A stretch of 40,470 nucleotides of DNA, taken from the NCBI GenBank assembly GCA_025056465.1, contig JANWVU010000005.1:1-40470 (forward strand). Direction: 5' to 3'. The notes below the pieces were generated by a model. It was given only the letters and a program-made list of their open reading frames with translations. It did no database searches and was not told the origin of the DNA. The position numbers and the translations under genes are program-made. Below, piece after piece: positions 31,039 to 36,068 of the stretch. Origin of the DNA: Verrucomicrobiia bacterium (GTDB lineage: Bacteria; Verrucomicrobiota; Verrucomicrobiia; Palsa-1439). How positions within the stretch are numbered: position 1 is the first letter of the stretch; every line of letters begins with the position of its first letter.

Positions 31039-31719
31039 ATGCTGACACCACAGGTTACTTTTTTGCTGATTATTTTTACGGTAATTGTGGCGGCGGTGGC
31101 GCAGTTCCGCGTTAGTTCGGCGTTCAATCGGTTCTCGCGGGTGCGGACGCGGCGTGGGATGACGGGAGCGGAGGTTGCGGCCTTGTTGTTGGAGCGGGCC
31201 GGCATTCATGATGTGGAAATTGCGCGGGTCGAGACGTATCTGGGTGATCACTACGACCCGACGCGCAAACGATTGTGTTTGTCGCCCGGTGTGTTTGACA
31301 GCGCATCGGTGGCGGCCGCCGGTATCGCGGCGCACGAGTGCGGGCATGCCATTCAGCATGCGCACGCATACGCGCCGTTGAAAGCGCGAATGGCGGTCGT
31401 GCCGGTGACGATGGTGGCGTCGCAGTTGTTGCCGTTCATCGTGATTGGTGGATTTATTTTTGGCTACGTGCGGCCGTTATTGGACCTTGGCATCGCGGTG
31501 TATGCGGTGCTGACGGTTTTCCAACTGATTACGTTACCGGTGGAGTTCGACGCGAGCCGACGGGCCCGGTTGGTGTTGGTTCAAAACGGCATTGTGACAC
31601 GTGAAGAGGACAGTGGTGTGGCGAAAGTGTTGAACGCGGCGGCGTTGACGTACGTGGCCGCGTTTTTGTCGGCATTGTTCCATCTCTTGCATCTGCTGGC
31701 CTTGCGAGGGCGGGAGTAA
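31039..31719 (+). CDS. YugP-like neutral zinc metallopeptidase (membrane)
   Basis: MTGAEVAALLLERAGIHDVEI...DHYDPTRKRLCLSPGVFDSASVAAAGIAAHECGHAIQHAHAYAPLKAR; LPVEFDASRRA; several TM segments. Confidence 0.9.
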   Translation: MLTPQVTFLLIIFTVIVAAVAQFRVSSAFNRFSRVRTRRGMTGAEVAALLLERAGIHDVEIARVETYLGDHYDPTRKRLCLSPGVFDSASVAAAGIAAHECGHAIQHAHAYAPLKARMAVVPVTMVASQLLPFIVIGGFIFGYVRPLLDLGIAVYAVLTVFQLITLPVEFDASRRARLVLVQNGIVTREEDSGVAKVLNAAALTYVAAFLSALFHLLHLLALRGRE

Positions 31720-31723
31720 AAAT

Positions 31724-31756
31724 CGTCACATAGTTGTAACGTGAGACCGTTATAGG
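31724..31756 (+). promoter_or_regulatory. Candidate Pho-box promoter
   Basis: Direct repeat CGTCAC (31724-31729) / TGTAAC (31735-31740), period 11 nt, followed 10 nt later by TATAGG (31751-31756). Confidence 0.45.
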
Positions 31757-31768
31757 AAAAGCGGTCTC
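31743..31768. repeat. Perfect 7-bp inverted repeat abutting the ABC-ATPase start codon
   Basis: GAGACCG (31743-31749) / CGGTCTC (31762-31768), 12-nt loop TTATAGGAAAAG; ATG begins at 31769. Confidence 0.7.
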
Positions 31769-32842
31769 ATGAAGGTCACGCTCGAGCACGTCACCAAGCG
31801 CTTCGGCGATCAGGCGGTCGTGCGAGATGTGTCGCTGGATATTGGCGACGGCGAGCTATTTTTTTTGCTTGGCCCCAGCGGGTGCGGCAAGACTACGCTG
31901 TTGCGTTGCATTGCCGGATTCTACATCCCGGAGCAGGGCCGTATCCTGATCGGTGACACAGATGCGACGCGCTTGCCGCCCCACCAGCGGGACACCGGCA
32001 TGGTGTTTCAAAGTTATGCGTTGTGGCCGCACATGACCGTGCGCGAGAACGTCGCGTTTGGTCTGGAATTGCGCGGGGTTCCCAAGGACGAGTTGCGGCG
32101 GCGGGTGGATGAGGCACTTGCAATGGTGAGAATGACGGAGCGGGCTGATTACCGGCCAACGCAACTTTCCGGTGGGCAACAGCAACGAGTAGCCTTGGCG
32201 CGCGCGTTGGTGATCCGTCCGAAATGTTTGCTGTTAGATGAACCGCTCTCCAACTTGGACGCCAAACTGCGGTTGGAAATGCGCACGGAGATTCGGCGCA
32301 TTTGCAAGGAAGCGGGTTTGACGGCGATCTATGTGACCCATGATCAGAAGGAAGCGTTGTCGGTGGCCGATCGGCTCGCGATTTTCGATCAAGGCGTCAT
32401 CCAACAATGCGGCACGCCTCGTGAGGTCTATGAGCGGCCGGTGAATCGGTTCGTGGCGAACTTTATCGGCGAGACCAACTTGATCGCGGGCACCGTGGTC
32501 GAAGCGGATGCGCATCGGGCGTTGGTGCGCGCGGATCACGGGGTGTTGGTGAGTCAAGTGTTACCGGCAGGTGAAACGTTGCGGGCAGGGCAGAGTGTGA
32601 CGGTGTCGGTTCGTCCCGAGGTGATTCATTTGGGCGAGCCACCGGCCGCGGAGGTAAACGTGTTGCGCGGTGAATTGCTAGAAAGCATTTACCTCGGTGA
32701 AATGGCGCAACATCAGGTGGCCGTGGGATCGTTGACGGTAAAGGTGTTTGATTTACACCCGAAGCTGCTTACGCGCGATGGACACCGGAAGCCGGTCACG
32801 GTTTGGTGCCGACCGGAGAACGTGGTGGTGTTGACGCGGTAA
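31769..32842 (+). CDS. ABC transporter ATP-binding protein (Fe3+/phosphonate/spermidine-type importer)
   Basis: LLGPSGCGKTTLLRCIAGFYIPEQGRILIGD, LSGGQQQRVALARALVIRPKCLLLDEPLSNLDAKLR, TOBE-like C-terminus. Confidence 0.94.
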   Translation: MKVTLEHVTKRFGDQAVVRDVSLDIGDGELFFLLGPSGCGKTTLLRCIAGFYIPEQGRILIGDTDATRLPPHQRDTGMVFQSYALWPHMTVRENVAFGLELRGVPKDELRRRVDEALAMVRMTERADYRPTQLSGGQQQRVALARALVIRPKCLLLDEPLSNLDAKLRLEMRTEIRRICKEAGLTAIYVTHDQKEALSVADRLAIFDQGVIQQCGTPREVYERPVNRFVANFIGETNLIAGTVVEADAHRALVRADHGVLVSQVLPAGETLRAGQSVTVSVRPEVIHLGEPPAAEVNVLRGELLESIYLGEMAQHQVAVGSLTVKVFDLHPKLLTRDGHRKPVTVWCRPENVVVLTR

Positions 32843-34368
32843 TGACACGGCAACTGGCAGTGCTGATTGTGGCGGGGGTAATCGTGGCACTGCCGTTTGT
32901 AGTGCGCGATGCGCCATCAAATGGTGCATGGCGAGAAGGTGACCCGGTGTTGACGATTATCTCGCCGCATAACGAGGCGATCCGGTATGAGTTTGGGCGG
33001 GCGTTTTCGGAGTGGCACCGGCAACGGTTCGGCAAACCGGTCAAAGTCGAGTGGATCACGGTTGGTGGCACGACGGAAATCAGTCGGTATCTCGTGAGCG
33101 AGTACGTGGCGGCGTTTCGGGCGTGGTGGACGGCCCAAGGTAACGCGTGGCCGGCTGGTGCGGCGGATGAGTTGGTGGCCCGCGAGCCGAAACGGTTTCC
33201 CGAAATGCATCGGCGGTTTCGAGAGGTGGATGATCCACGACAGTTCACGAGCAAGCTGGATTTGTTTTTTGGCGGCGGAGAGTTTGATCACACGCGGGCG
33301 CATCAGCAAGGGTTGACGGTTGCACCGTGGCGACCGGGTGAGGAGCCGGTGGAGTTGCTGGCGCAGATACCGGCCGAGGTGAGCGGTGAGGTCTGGCGCA
33401 CGCCATACATGATTGGGACGTGTCTCAGCACGTTTGGGATCTGTTACAACGTGGATCGGTTGCGGGCACTGGGCGTGGCGGAGCCACCCACGCGTTGGGA
33501 GGACCTCACAGATCCTGTGTATTTCGGTCAACTGGGTGTCGCGGATCCCACCAAGTCCGGTAGCATCGCAAAAGCGTTTGAGATGATCATCCAGCAGCAG
33601 ATGCGCGAGGCAGCGGATCCGGCGAGCGGATGGGAGAAGGGCATTCGACTGATTCAGTTGATTGGGGCCAACGCGCGATACTTCACGGACTCAGCGAGCA
33701 AGGTGCCGATTGATGTGGCGGCGGGGGACGCGGCAGCGGGTTTGGCGATTGATTTTTATGCGCGATTTCAAGCGGAGGTGTCGGGCAAAGGGCGAATGGG
33801 TTATGTGACACCGCGGGGCGGATCGAGCGTAAGCGCCGATCCGATCAGTTTGTTGCGCGGAGCGCCAAATCGGCAGGTCGCGGTGCAGTTTATCGAGTTT
33901 GTGCTGAGTCGCGAGGGACAACGGTTGTGGATGGCAGAACCCGGCACGCTTGGCGGACCGCAAAAATACCTGTTGTGTCGAACACCGATTCGGTTGGATT
34001 TGCATGCGGAGCTGCCGCCGATGTTGGAGCAACCGATGGAGCTAGCGCGCACGTTCACGTATCGGCGGGAGTGGACCAGCGGACATTTCAACCTGCAACG
34101 CGATCTGGTTCGCGCGATGTGTCTGGATTCGGGTGAGGAGTTGCGGCGCGCGTGGCGCGAAATTATTCGTCGCGGAGGGCCACAAGCCCATCCGCAGGCG
34201 ATGGCGTGTTTGCAGCAGTTGCCGGTGACGTGGGGCAACGCGCGAGACGTGGTGAAACAGAGAAATCGGCTCACCTACCTACGCGAGTGGACGGAGTTTT
34301 TCCGCGCGAATTACCGGCAGGCCGAACGGTTGGCGCGCGGCGCACATAGGGTGGCGCAAGCATGGTAG
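32842..34368 (+). CDS. ABC transporter extracellular solute-binding protein, large (508 aa) variant
   Basis: From ATG 32842: N-terminal TM/signal segment, VLTIISPHNEAIRYEFGRAFSEWHRQRFGKPVKVEWITVGGTTE..., LGVADPTKSGSIAKAFEMII; located between ATPase and permease. Confidence 0.88.
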   Translation: MTRQLAVLIVAGVIVALPFVVRDAPSNGAWREGDPVLTIISPHNEAIRYEFGRAFSEWHRQRFGKPVKVEWITVGGTTEISRYLVSEYVAAFRAWWTAQGNAWPAGAADELVAREPKRFPEMHRRFREVDDPRQFTSKLDLFFGGGEFDHTRAHQQGLTVAPWRPGEEPVELLAQIPAEVSGEVWRTPYMIGTCLSTFGICYNVDRLRALGVAEPPTRWEDLTDPVYFGQLGVADPTKSGSIAKAFEMIIQQQMREAADPASGWEKGIRLIQLIGANARYFTDSASKVPIDVAAGDAAAGLAIDFYARFQAEVSGKGRMGYVTPRGGSSVSADPISLLRGAPNRQVAVQFIEFVLSREGQRLWMAEPGTLGGPQKYLLCRTPIRLDLHAELPPMLEQPMELARTFTYRREWTSGHFNLQRDLVRAMCLDSGEELRRAWREIIRRGGPQAHPQAMACLQQLPVTWGNARDVVKQRNRLTYLREWTEFFRANYRQAERLARGAHRVAQAW

Positions 34369-36068
34369 GGCCACGGACAGCGCAGGGTTTGTCGTGGGTA
34401 CTAGGGGTGGTGCTAGCGGTGATGTTTTTGGTGCCGCTTGGAACGGTTATCAGCGGTGGATTTTTCGTCGAGGGACGGTTTACGTTGGAATACGTGTGGG
34501 GGGTGTTTCAGAGTCCGATCTACGCGGAAGGACTGCTCAACAGTCTGAAGATTGCAGTGGGAACAACGGGTTTGGTGACGTTGATCGCGATTCCATTGGC
34601 GTGGCTGGGTAACCGGTATGAGTTCCCAGGCAAGAGGTTGCTGAGCGGGCTGGTGTTAGTGCCGATGGTATTACCGCCGTTTGTGGGGGCGATCGGGTTT
34701 CAGCAGATTTTTGGCGTATACGGTGCGCTGAACAGCTTGATGGGTTGGGATGTGGATTGGTTGGGACGAAGCCGGTATTTCGGGGTTGTGCTGTTGCAAG
34801 CGCTGGCGCTGTATCCGATCATGTATCTGAACGTGGCGGCGGCGTTGGCGAACATTGACCCGGCAATGGAGGAAGCGGCGGAAAATCTGGGTTGTACCGG
34901 GTGGCGGAAATTTTGGCGGATTACGTTGCCGTTAATGATGCCGGGGTTGTTTGCCGGCGGAGCGCTGGTGTTTATCTGGAGCTTCACCGAGTTGGGCACC
35001 CCGTTGATGTTGAACTACACCCGATGTGCACCCGTGCAGGTGTTTGATTCATTGAAGGAGATTGGGACGAATCCGTTTCCGTTTGCGCTGGTGTTGGTGA
35101 TGTTGGTGGCGAGCGTGACGTTGTACGGAGTAAGCAAACTGTTGTTGGGTCGGCACAGCTATGCGATGCAAAGTAAGGCGGCGACAGTGAGCGGGACCAT
35201 TACGGTGCACGGTTGGCGAGGGCTGCGCGTGGCGCTGCCGTTTGTGGCGGTTAGTGCGTTGGCGTTGGTGCCACATGCCGGCGTGCTCTTGGTAAGTTTC
35301 ACGGAGCCGGGATGCTGGTATCAAAGTGTGCTGCCGACGGGATGGACACTGGAGAGTTACCGCGAAGCGTTGGGACACGGCATCACCGTGTCGAGCATCC
35401 GCAACAGTCTATTGTACTCGGCGCTCGCGGTGCTGGTGAATTTGGTTTTGGGCGTGGCGATTGCCGTGGTAGTGGTGCGGACGCAGGTGCGATTTCGGTG
35501 GTTGCTGGATGCGTTGGCAATGTTGCCGCTGGCGGTACCGGGTTTGGTGATGGCGTTCGGGTTTCTGGCAGTGAGCCTTTACCTCGCGAATTTGGAGTGG
35601 GTGAAAAGCAGTCAGGTATGGAGCCAGTTGCTGGACGTGCGTATGAACCCGACATTGTTTCTGGTGATCGCGTATGCGGTTCGGCGGTTGCCTTATGTGG
35701 TGCGGTCCGCTGTGGCTGGGTTGCAACAAACGTCCGTGTCGTTGGAGGAGGCGGCGGCGAATTTGGGTGCGCCGCCAGCGGTGGTGTTGCGACGGATTAC
35801 ATTGCCGTTGATTGTGGCGAATTTGATTGCGGGGTTGTTGCTGGCGTTTGCGTTCAGCATGTTGGAGGTAAGCGATAGCCTGATGTTGGCACAACGCGCC
35901 GATTTCTTTCCGATCACCAAGACGATTTACGAACTGTTCCAACTGATCGGAACCGGTAAGTACGTGGCATCGGCCCTCGGAGTTTGGGCGATGCTGTTTT
36001 TGGCGGTGACGATCTTGGGGGCTAGTTTGGTCTTGGGCAAAAAGATGGGGCAACTGTTCCGCGTGTAG
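34362..36068 (+). CDS. ABC transporter permease, fused two-domain (FbpB/ThiP/PhnUV-like)
   Basis: Two repeats of binding-protein-dependent permease domain with EAA-type loops (EEAAENLGCTGWRKFWRITLPLMMPG and EEAAANLGAPPAVVLRRITLPLIVAN). Confidence 0.93.
   Translation: MVGPRTAQGLSWVLGVVLAVMFLVPLGTVISGGFFVEGRFTLEYVWGVFQSPIYAEGLLNSLKIAVGTTGLVTLIAIPLAWLGNRYEFPGKRLLSGLVLVPMVLPPFVGAIGFQQIFGVYGALNSLMGWDVDWLGRSRYFGVVLLQALALYPIMYLNVAAALANIDPAMEEAAENLGCTGWRKFWRITLPLMMPGLFAGGALVFIWSFTELGTPLMLNYTRCAPVQVFDSLKEIGTNPFPFALVLVMLVASVTLYGVSKLLLGRHSYAMQSKAATVSGTITVHGWRGLRVALPFVAVSALALVPHAGVLLVSFTEPGCWYQSVLPTGWTLESYREALGHGITVSSIRNSLLYSALAVLVNLVLGVAIAVVVVRTQVRFRWLLDALAMLPLAVPGLVMAFGFLAVSLYLANLEWVKSSQVWSQLLDVRMNPTLFLVIAYAVRRLPYVVRSAVAGLQQTSVSLEEAAANLGAPPAVVLRRITLPLIVANLIAGLLLAFAFSMLEVSDSLMLAQRADFFPITKTIYELFQLIGTGKYVASALGVWAMLFLAVTILGASLVLGKKMGQLFRV

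Follow-up and report, generated by a model that had tools for sequence, protein, structure and literature searches.

A candidate Pho-box promoter upstream of a putative phosphate-ester ABC importer operon in a Verrucomicrobiia bacterium

Pho boxes are composed of direct-repeat units with 7 conserved and 4 variable nucleotides, arranged with a period of 11 (PMC4415409). Among the importers of phosphorus compounds, the 2-aminoethylphosphonate (2-AEP) transporter AepXVW of Pseudomonas putida is PhoBR dependent (PMC8316502, PMC9311074). In the sugar-phosphate binder AfuA, the phosphate group is contacted by S37 and by S148-G149-T150, and in the pyridoxal-5'-phosphate (PLP) binder P5PA by T37 (PMC4546632, PMC8427247). 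The AfuABC systems, represented by AfuA of Actinobacillus and VcA0625 of Vibrio, were once annotated as ferric transporters. Here, we compare these systems with an ABC importer operon found in a window of 40,470 nucleotides, the whole stretch of contig JANWVU010000005.1 that was analyzed. The source genome (G000), that of an uncultured bacterium, is an assembly of 2.38 Mb in 269 contigs, 81% complete, and belongs to a family set of 11 genomes. The features considered are as follows.

31039..31719, forward strand: upstream neighbor, a neutral zinc metallopeptidase (Zn_peptidase_2; Pfam)
31724..31740, forward strand: Pho box with half-sites CGTCAC and TGTAAC (direct reading, family matrix, orthologue in genome G005, pstS/phoB of relatives)
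31742..31769, forward strand: perfect 8-bp inverted repeat, TGAGACCG-N12-CGGTCTCA, which covers the -10 and the A of the ATG (sequence)
31751..31756, forward strand: -10-like TATAGG (10-nt spacer after the box, spacing comparison with family pstS promoters)
31769..32842, forward strand: ABC importer ATPase of 357 aa, PhnT2/PotA-like, with a TOBE_2 domain (Pfam, NCBIfam)
32842..34368, forward strand: solute-binding protein of 508 aa with an AfuA/P5PA-like core and additional helical segments (SBP_bac_6, PDB relatives, AF2 model)
34362..36068, forward strand: fused two-domain permease of 568 aa (two BPD_transp_1 stretches, orthologues)

Direct reading of the DNA showed a 49-bp gap (31720-31768) between the stop codon of the zinc peptidase gene and the ATG of the ATPase gene at 31769. 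The first half-site spans 31724-31729 and the second 31735-31740; they are separated by N5 and start 11 nt apart, which gives the two-unit, 11-nt-period arrangement of a Pho box (PMC4415409). TATAGG follows 10 nt after the box, which stands in place of a -35 element. The initial annotation had given the sequence and position of this gap correctly and had likened it to the E. coli phoA promoter, whose sequence it quoted. The quoted 37-mer proved exact: it is present in 4,662 of 5,426 E. coli genomes, and in the one genome inspected, phoA comes immediately after it. Both promoters have two half-sites with an 11-nt period and a TATAG-type -10 ten nucleotides downstream, but the phoA repeats read CTGTCAT, whereas the half-sites of the Verrucomicrobiia family are close to CYGTMAC-ACAA-CYGTAAC.

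Boxes of the same kind precede pstS or phoB in eight family genomes, G000 included. In the seven others, the box lies before pstS (G005, G010, G007, G006, G002, and G001) or before phoB (G005, G010, and G003). The pstS gene of G000 has three half-sites at 11/11, TTGACAC-ACGG-GTGTAAC-GCCG-CCGTTAC, between a porin gene and pstS. The corresponding upstream sequences are CCGTAACACAACCGTAAC in G007, CCGTAACACAAACGTAAC in G010, CTGTAACGCAACCGTAAC in G002, CCGTCACACAACCGTAAC in G006, and TTGACGCAAAACCGTAAC in G001. Of the five pstS promoters compared, four (G005, G010, G007, and G006) have the TA of the -10 starting 10 nt past the box, and the fifth (G002) has it at 9 nt. In G005, one site precedes pstS, followed by pstC, pstA, and pstB, and another precedes phoB (L086:5723-6409); close to the latter gene are a DUF47 gene and genes for a PHO4-family transporter and a PnpS/PhoR-type kinase. 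In G000, contig C235 (L084:2979-5194) carries a Pho-box-like site directly followed by genes for a PstS-family protein and a GlpT/PgtP-type MFS protein, a pair that likely constitutes a second organophosphate route. A palindromic dimer operator, suggested by GTCAC-N6-GTGAC in G005, was dropped, as the pst/phoB sites are direct repeats (GTAAC-N6-GTAAC, GTCAC-N6-GTCAC).

We then scored the window with a 20-position matrix built from ten family pst/pho sites, with the ABC-importer sites left out of training. The site at 31724 scored 16.4 bits, nearly 3 bits more than any other site in the window. Under a first-order (dinucleotide) model built on the available G000 sequence, this score corresponds to a p value of 1.75e-6 per position and, with both strands of the gap counted, of about 1e-4, and about 8 sites of equal score are expected by chance per genome. 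The matrix is loose, with leave-one-out scores of its training sites between 0.5 and 28.6. A strict pattern gave 28 matches in all 11 family genomes versus 39 in the reversed control, that is, no raw enrichment; by our reading, 10 of the 28, among them those at phoB of G010 and of G003, lie just before a pstS, phoB, PstS-family, or porin gene. Given the chance expectation and the lack of raw enrichment, our case is built on placement and conservation and not on the string by itself. A pattern requiring TATA at a short spacer matched only the G005 copy; it misses the window site because the spacer there is 10. Sites on contigs C264 and C248 of G000 also fit the strict pattern, but neither is clearly associated with a Pho gene. 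The C264 site (L085:3659-4122) immediately precedes a 147-aa REC-only ORF corresponding to the receiver part of the PhoB model, with no DNA-binding domain after it.

The nearest orthologue of the importer, in G005, which represents another genus, carries the box and a TATAAG in the matching place. The TATAAG lies 8 nt after the box and 11 nt before the ATG, compared with 12 nt between TATAGG and ATG in the window. The G005 site scores 9.4 bits and would not stand out alone; it counts because of its position (43 versus 46 nt from box to ATG in the two genomes) and the accompanying TATAAG. The upstream scan of orthologues advised by the initial annotation thus found the box kept in the nearest one but absent from those farther out, apart from weak matches at L053 (10.8 bits) and L014 (11.2 bits). 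The L053 match, CTGCAACGAAAATGTGACGT, lies upstream of the ATPase gene in a Puniceicoccaceae MAG. This distribution indicates that Pho control is lineage specific and that the wider role of the transporter need not be phosphate scavenging. Across the orthologues, no gene neighbor besides the three ABC genes is conserved, so the neighborhood gives no clue to the substrate. At loci with related binding-protein and ATPase genes across the class (L007, L009, L010, L011, L013, L014, L016, L020, L021, and L023), Zn_peptidase_2 genes lie nearby, often in the order Zn-SBP-ATPase, which suggests that the association of this peptidase with the ABC genes is long-standing. In the window, the zinc metallopeptidase gene is outside the proposed Pho transcript.

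The initial annotation held that a genome without PhoR/PhoB would speak against Pho control. This absence is formally true of the 81%-complete G000 assembly, in which neither a Trans_reg_C gene nor a close PhoR was found, whereas all 10 relatives searched contain Trans_reg_C genes. However, ORF reading of G002 gives the order porin-pstS-pstC-pstA-pstB-phoU-phoB, and contig C247 of G000 follows the same order but ends inside pstB, just where phoU-phoB should come. The absence is thus best explained by the assembly break. The genes presumed to be pstC and pstA on C247 (L098, reverse strand; also L147), after the porin-like gene and pstS, are unusually long, encoding 832 and 533 aa, respectively.

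The sequence over the start codon has a second property, which the initial annotation had missed: the arms of the inverted repeat (31742-31749 and 31762-31769) enclose a 12-nt loop. An RNA switch or attenuator that governs translation from this position would have in its favor a stable hairpin (fold z of -3.35) with AGGAAA in the loop. Yet the G005 orthologue lacks the repeat (z of +0.88), and a transcript from TATAGG would begin within it, which would restrict the hairpin to read-through mRNA. We rejected the hairpin as a regulator, an idea that we hold to be extremely improbable, and the repeat is probably incidental.

To place the binding protein, we built a sequence profile from 36 of its relatives and ran it against PDB proteins. 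The profile matched AfuA (4r72-75) at 5.7e-25, 8x1a, titled G6P-binding VcA0625 in the fold library, at 7.9e-21, and P5PA at 5.8e-20; the next matches, ferric binders among them, were at 3.5e-9 or worse. An AF2 model of the protein (pLDDT 93.9, pTM 0.89) gave a concordant picture, with AfuA, VcA0625, or P5PA at all of Foldseek ranks 1 to 7, a ferric binder at rank 8, and STM0429 (4r6y), which we take to be a PhnS-type protein, at rank 9. Among solved binding proteins, AfuA is thus the nearest in both sequence and fold, and P5PA belongs to the same clade. Both phosphate-contact motifs of AfuA, SG[ST] and GG[ST], are kept and strongly conserved: S239-G240-S241 falls opposite S148-G149-T150 in the alignment, and G75-G76-T77 matches the helix start at AfuA S37 and P5PA T37 by motif and position, not by residue-level superposition. 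In contrast, the alignment places A307/R308 (or F305/Y306 without a gap) and approximately S331 where AfuA has its essential sugar-specificity residues H205/D206/E229, and AfuA T60 is not conserved, being a glycine here. The protein further differs from AfuA in length (508 versus ∼320 aa), in its extra helical segments, and in the Pho box upstream of its operon, and it is larger than P5PA, in which Y103 and H203 contact the ring. FbpA-type Fe3+ binders have an adjacent tyrosine pair; this protein has only F305-Y306, and Y306 is not invariant. As the phosphate motifs are kept and the sugar residues and tyrosine pair are missing, our best call from the sequence is that the operon probably imports a phosphate ester, one that does not follow from AfuA's rule.

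We weighed this reading against others. The operon might be a Pho-controlled 2-AEP importer of the AepXVW/PhnSTUV type, systems with which it shares a pfam13343 binding protein and related permeases. The PhoBR dependence of AepXVW (PMC8316502, PMC9311074) counts for this reading, as do the best NCBIfam matches, PhnS2 for the binding protein and PhnT2 for the ATPase, and the place of STM0429 in the fold search. None of the three operon proteins passes the equivalog cutoffs, however (PhnS2, 48 versus 393 bits; PhnT2, 367 versus 458; PhnU2 for the permease, 122 versus 593), and both sequence and fold are nearer to the ester binders. Moreover, the genes of phosphonate catabolism were not found in G000 and G005, both incomplete: PhnJ was detected in neither, and matches to the PhnW and PhnX models stayed below the cutoffs, as in all control genomes. 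We therefore regard a 2-AEP importer as unlikely. An Fbp/Fut-type iron(III) importer whose Pho box is fortuitous or cross-regulated seems very unlikely: the SBP_bac_6 fold is common to both and ferric binders form the next Foldseek group, but they match at 1e-8 or worse versus 1e-20 to 1e-25 for AfuA/P5PA, the FbpA tyrosine signature is absent, and there is no obvious reason for Pho control of iron uptake. The earlier proposal of a phosphorus compound rather than iron is thus supported by both the Pho box and the substrate family to which the binding protein belongs. Of the two substrates it had offered, an organophosphate ester is favored by the G6P- and PLP-binding relatives, while a phosphonate is less supported.

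The box itself could be a chance match, with the operon outside PhoB control and dependent for its expression on the upstream gene or some unrelated promoter. The number of equally good sites expected per genome, a raw count not above the reversed control, and the lack of a box at distant orthologues all fit such an origin. Against it, a site with a probability near 1e-4 for the gap has the -10 spacing of the family and recurs at the orthologous place in another genus, and we consider chance quite unlikely. The Pho-box promoter claimed in the initial annotation is supported by both the PhoB motif of the lineage and the G005 orthologue.

Altogether, we favor, as the probable reading, a PhoB-activated sigma-70 promoter driving an importer that takes up an organic phosphate ester as a phosphorus source. 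Under phosphate scarcity, phosphorylated PhoB is predicted to bind the two 11-nt half-sites that replace the -35 and to bring RNA polymerase to TATAGG, inducing the operon. Judging from the spacing, transcription would start about 5 to 7 nt before the ATG, yielding a near-leaderless mRNA that would include the inverted repeat only in part and encode all three components of the importer (ATPase, solute-binding protein, and fused permease). The solute-binding protein would hold the ester through its phosphate moiety for uptake into the cell by the importer.

A full-text literature search with partial coverage returned no paper clearly describing such a substrate class or a verrucomicrobial PhoB consensus. 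The present analysis offers a possible PhoB consensus for one verrucomicrobial family and a concrete substrate class for an importer whose relatives often carry iron or polyamine transporter labels. More tentatively, the ∼500-aa AfuA-like binding proteins of Verrucomicrobiota, Lentisphaerae/Kiritimatiellae, and Planctomycetes MAGs may form an uncharacterized clade whose ligand would be neither a hexose phosphate, PLP, nor 2-AEP, one member of which would have been put under the lineage's own form of the Pho box for phosphorus scavenging. The same transporter has a Pho box in one lineage and none in its orthologues elsewhere.
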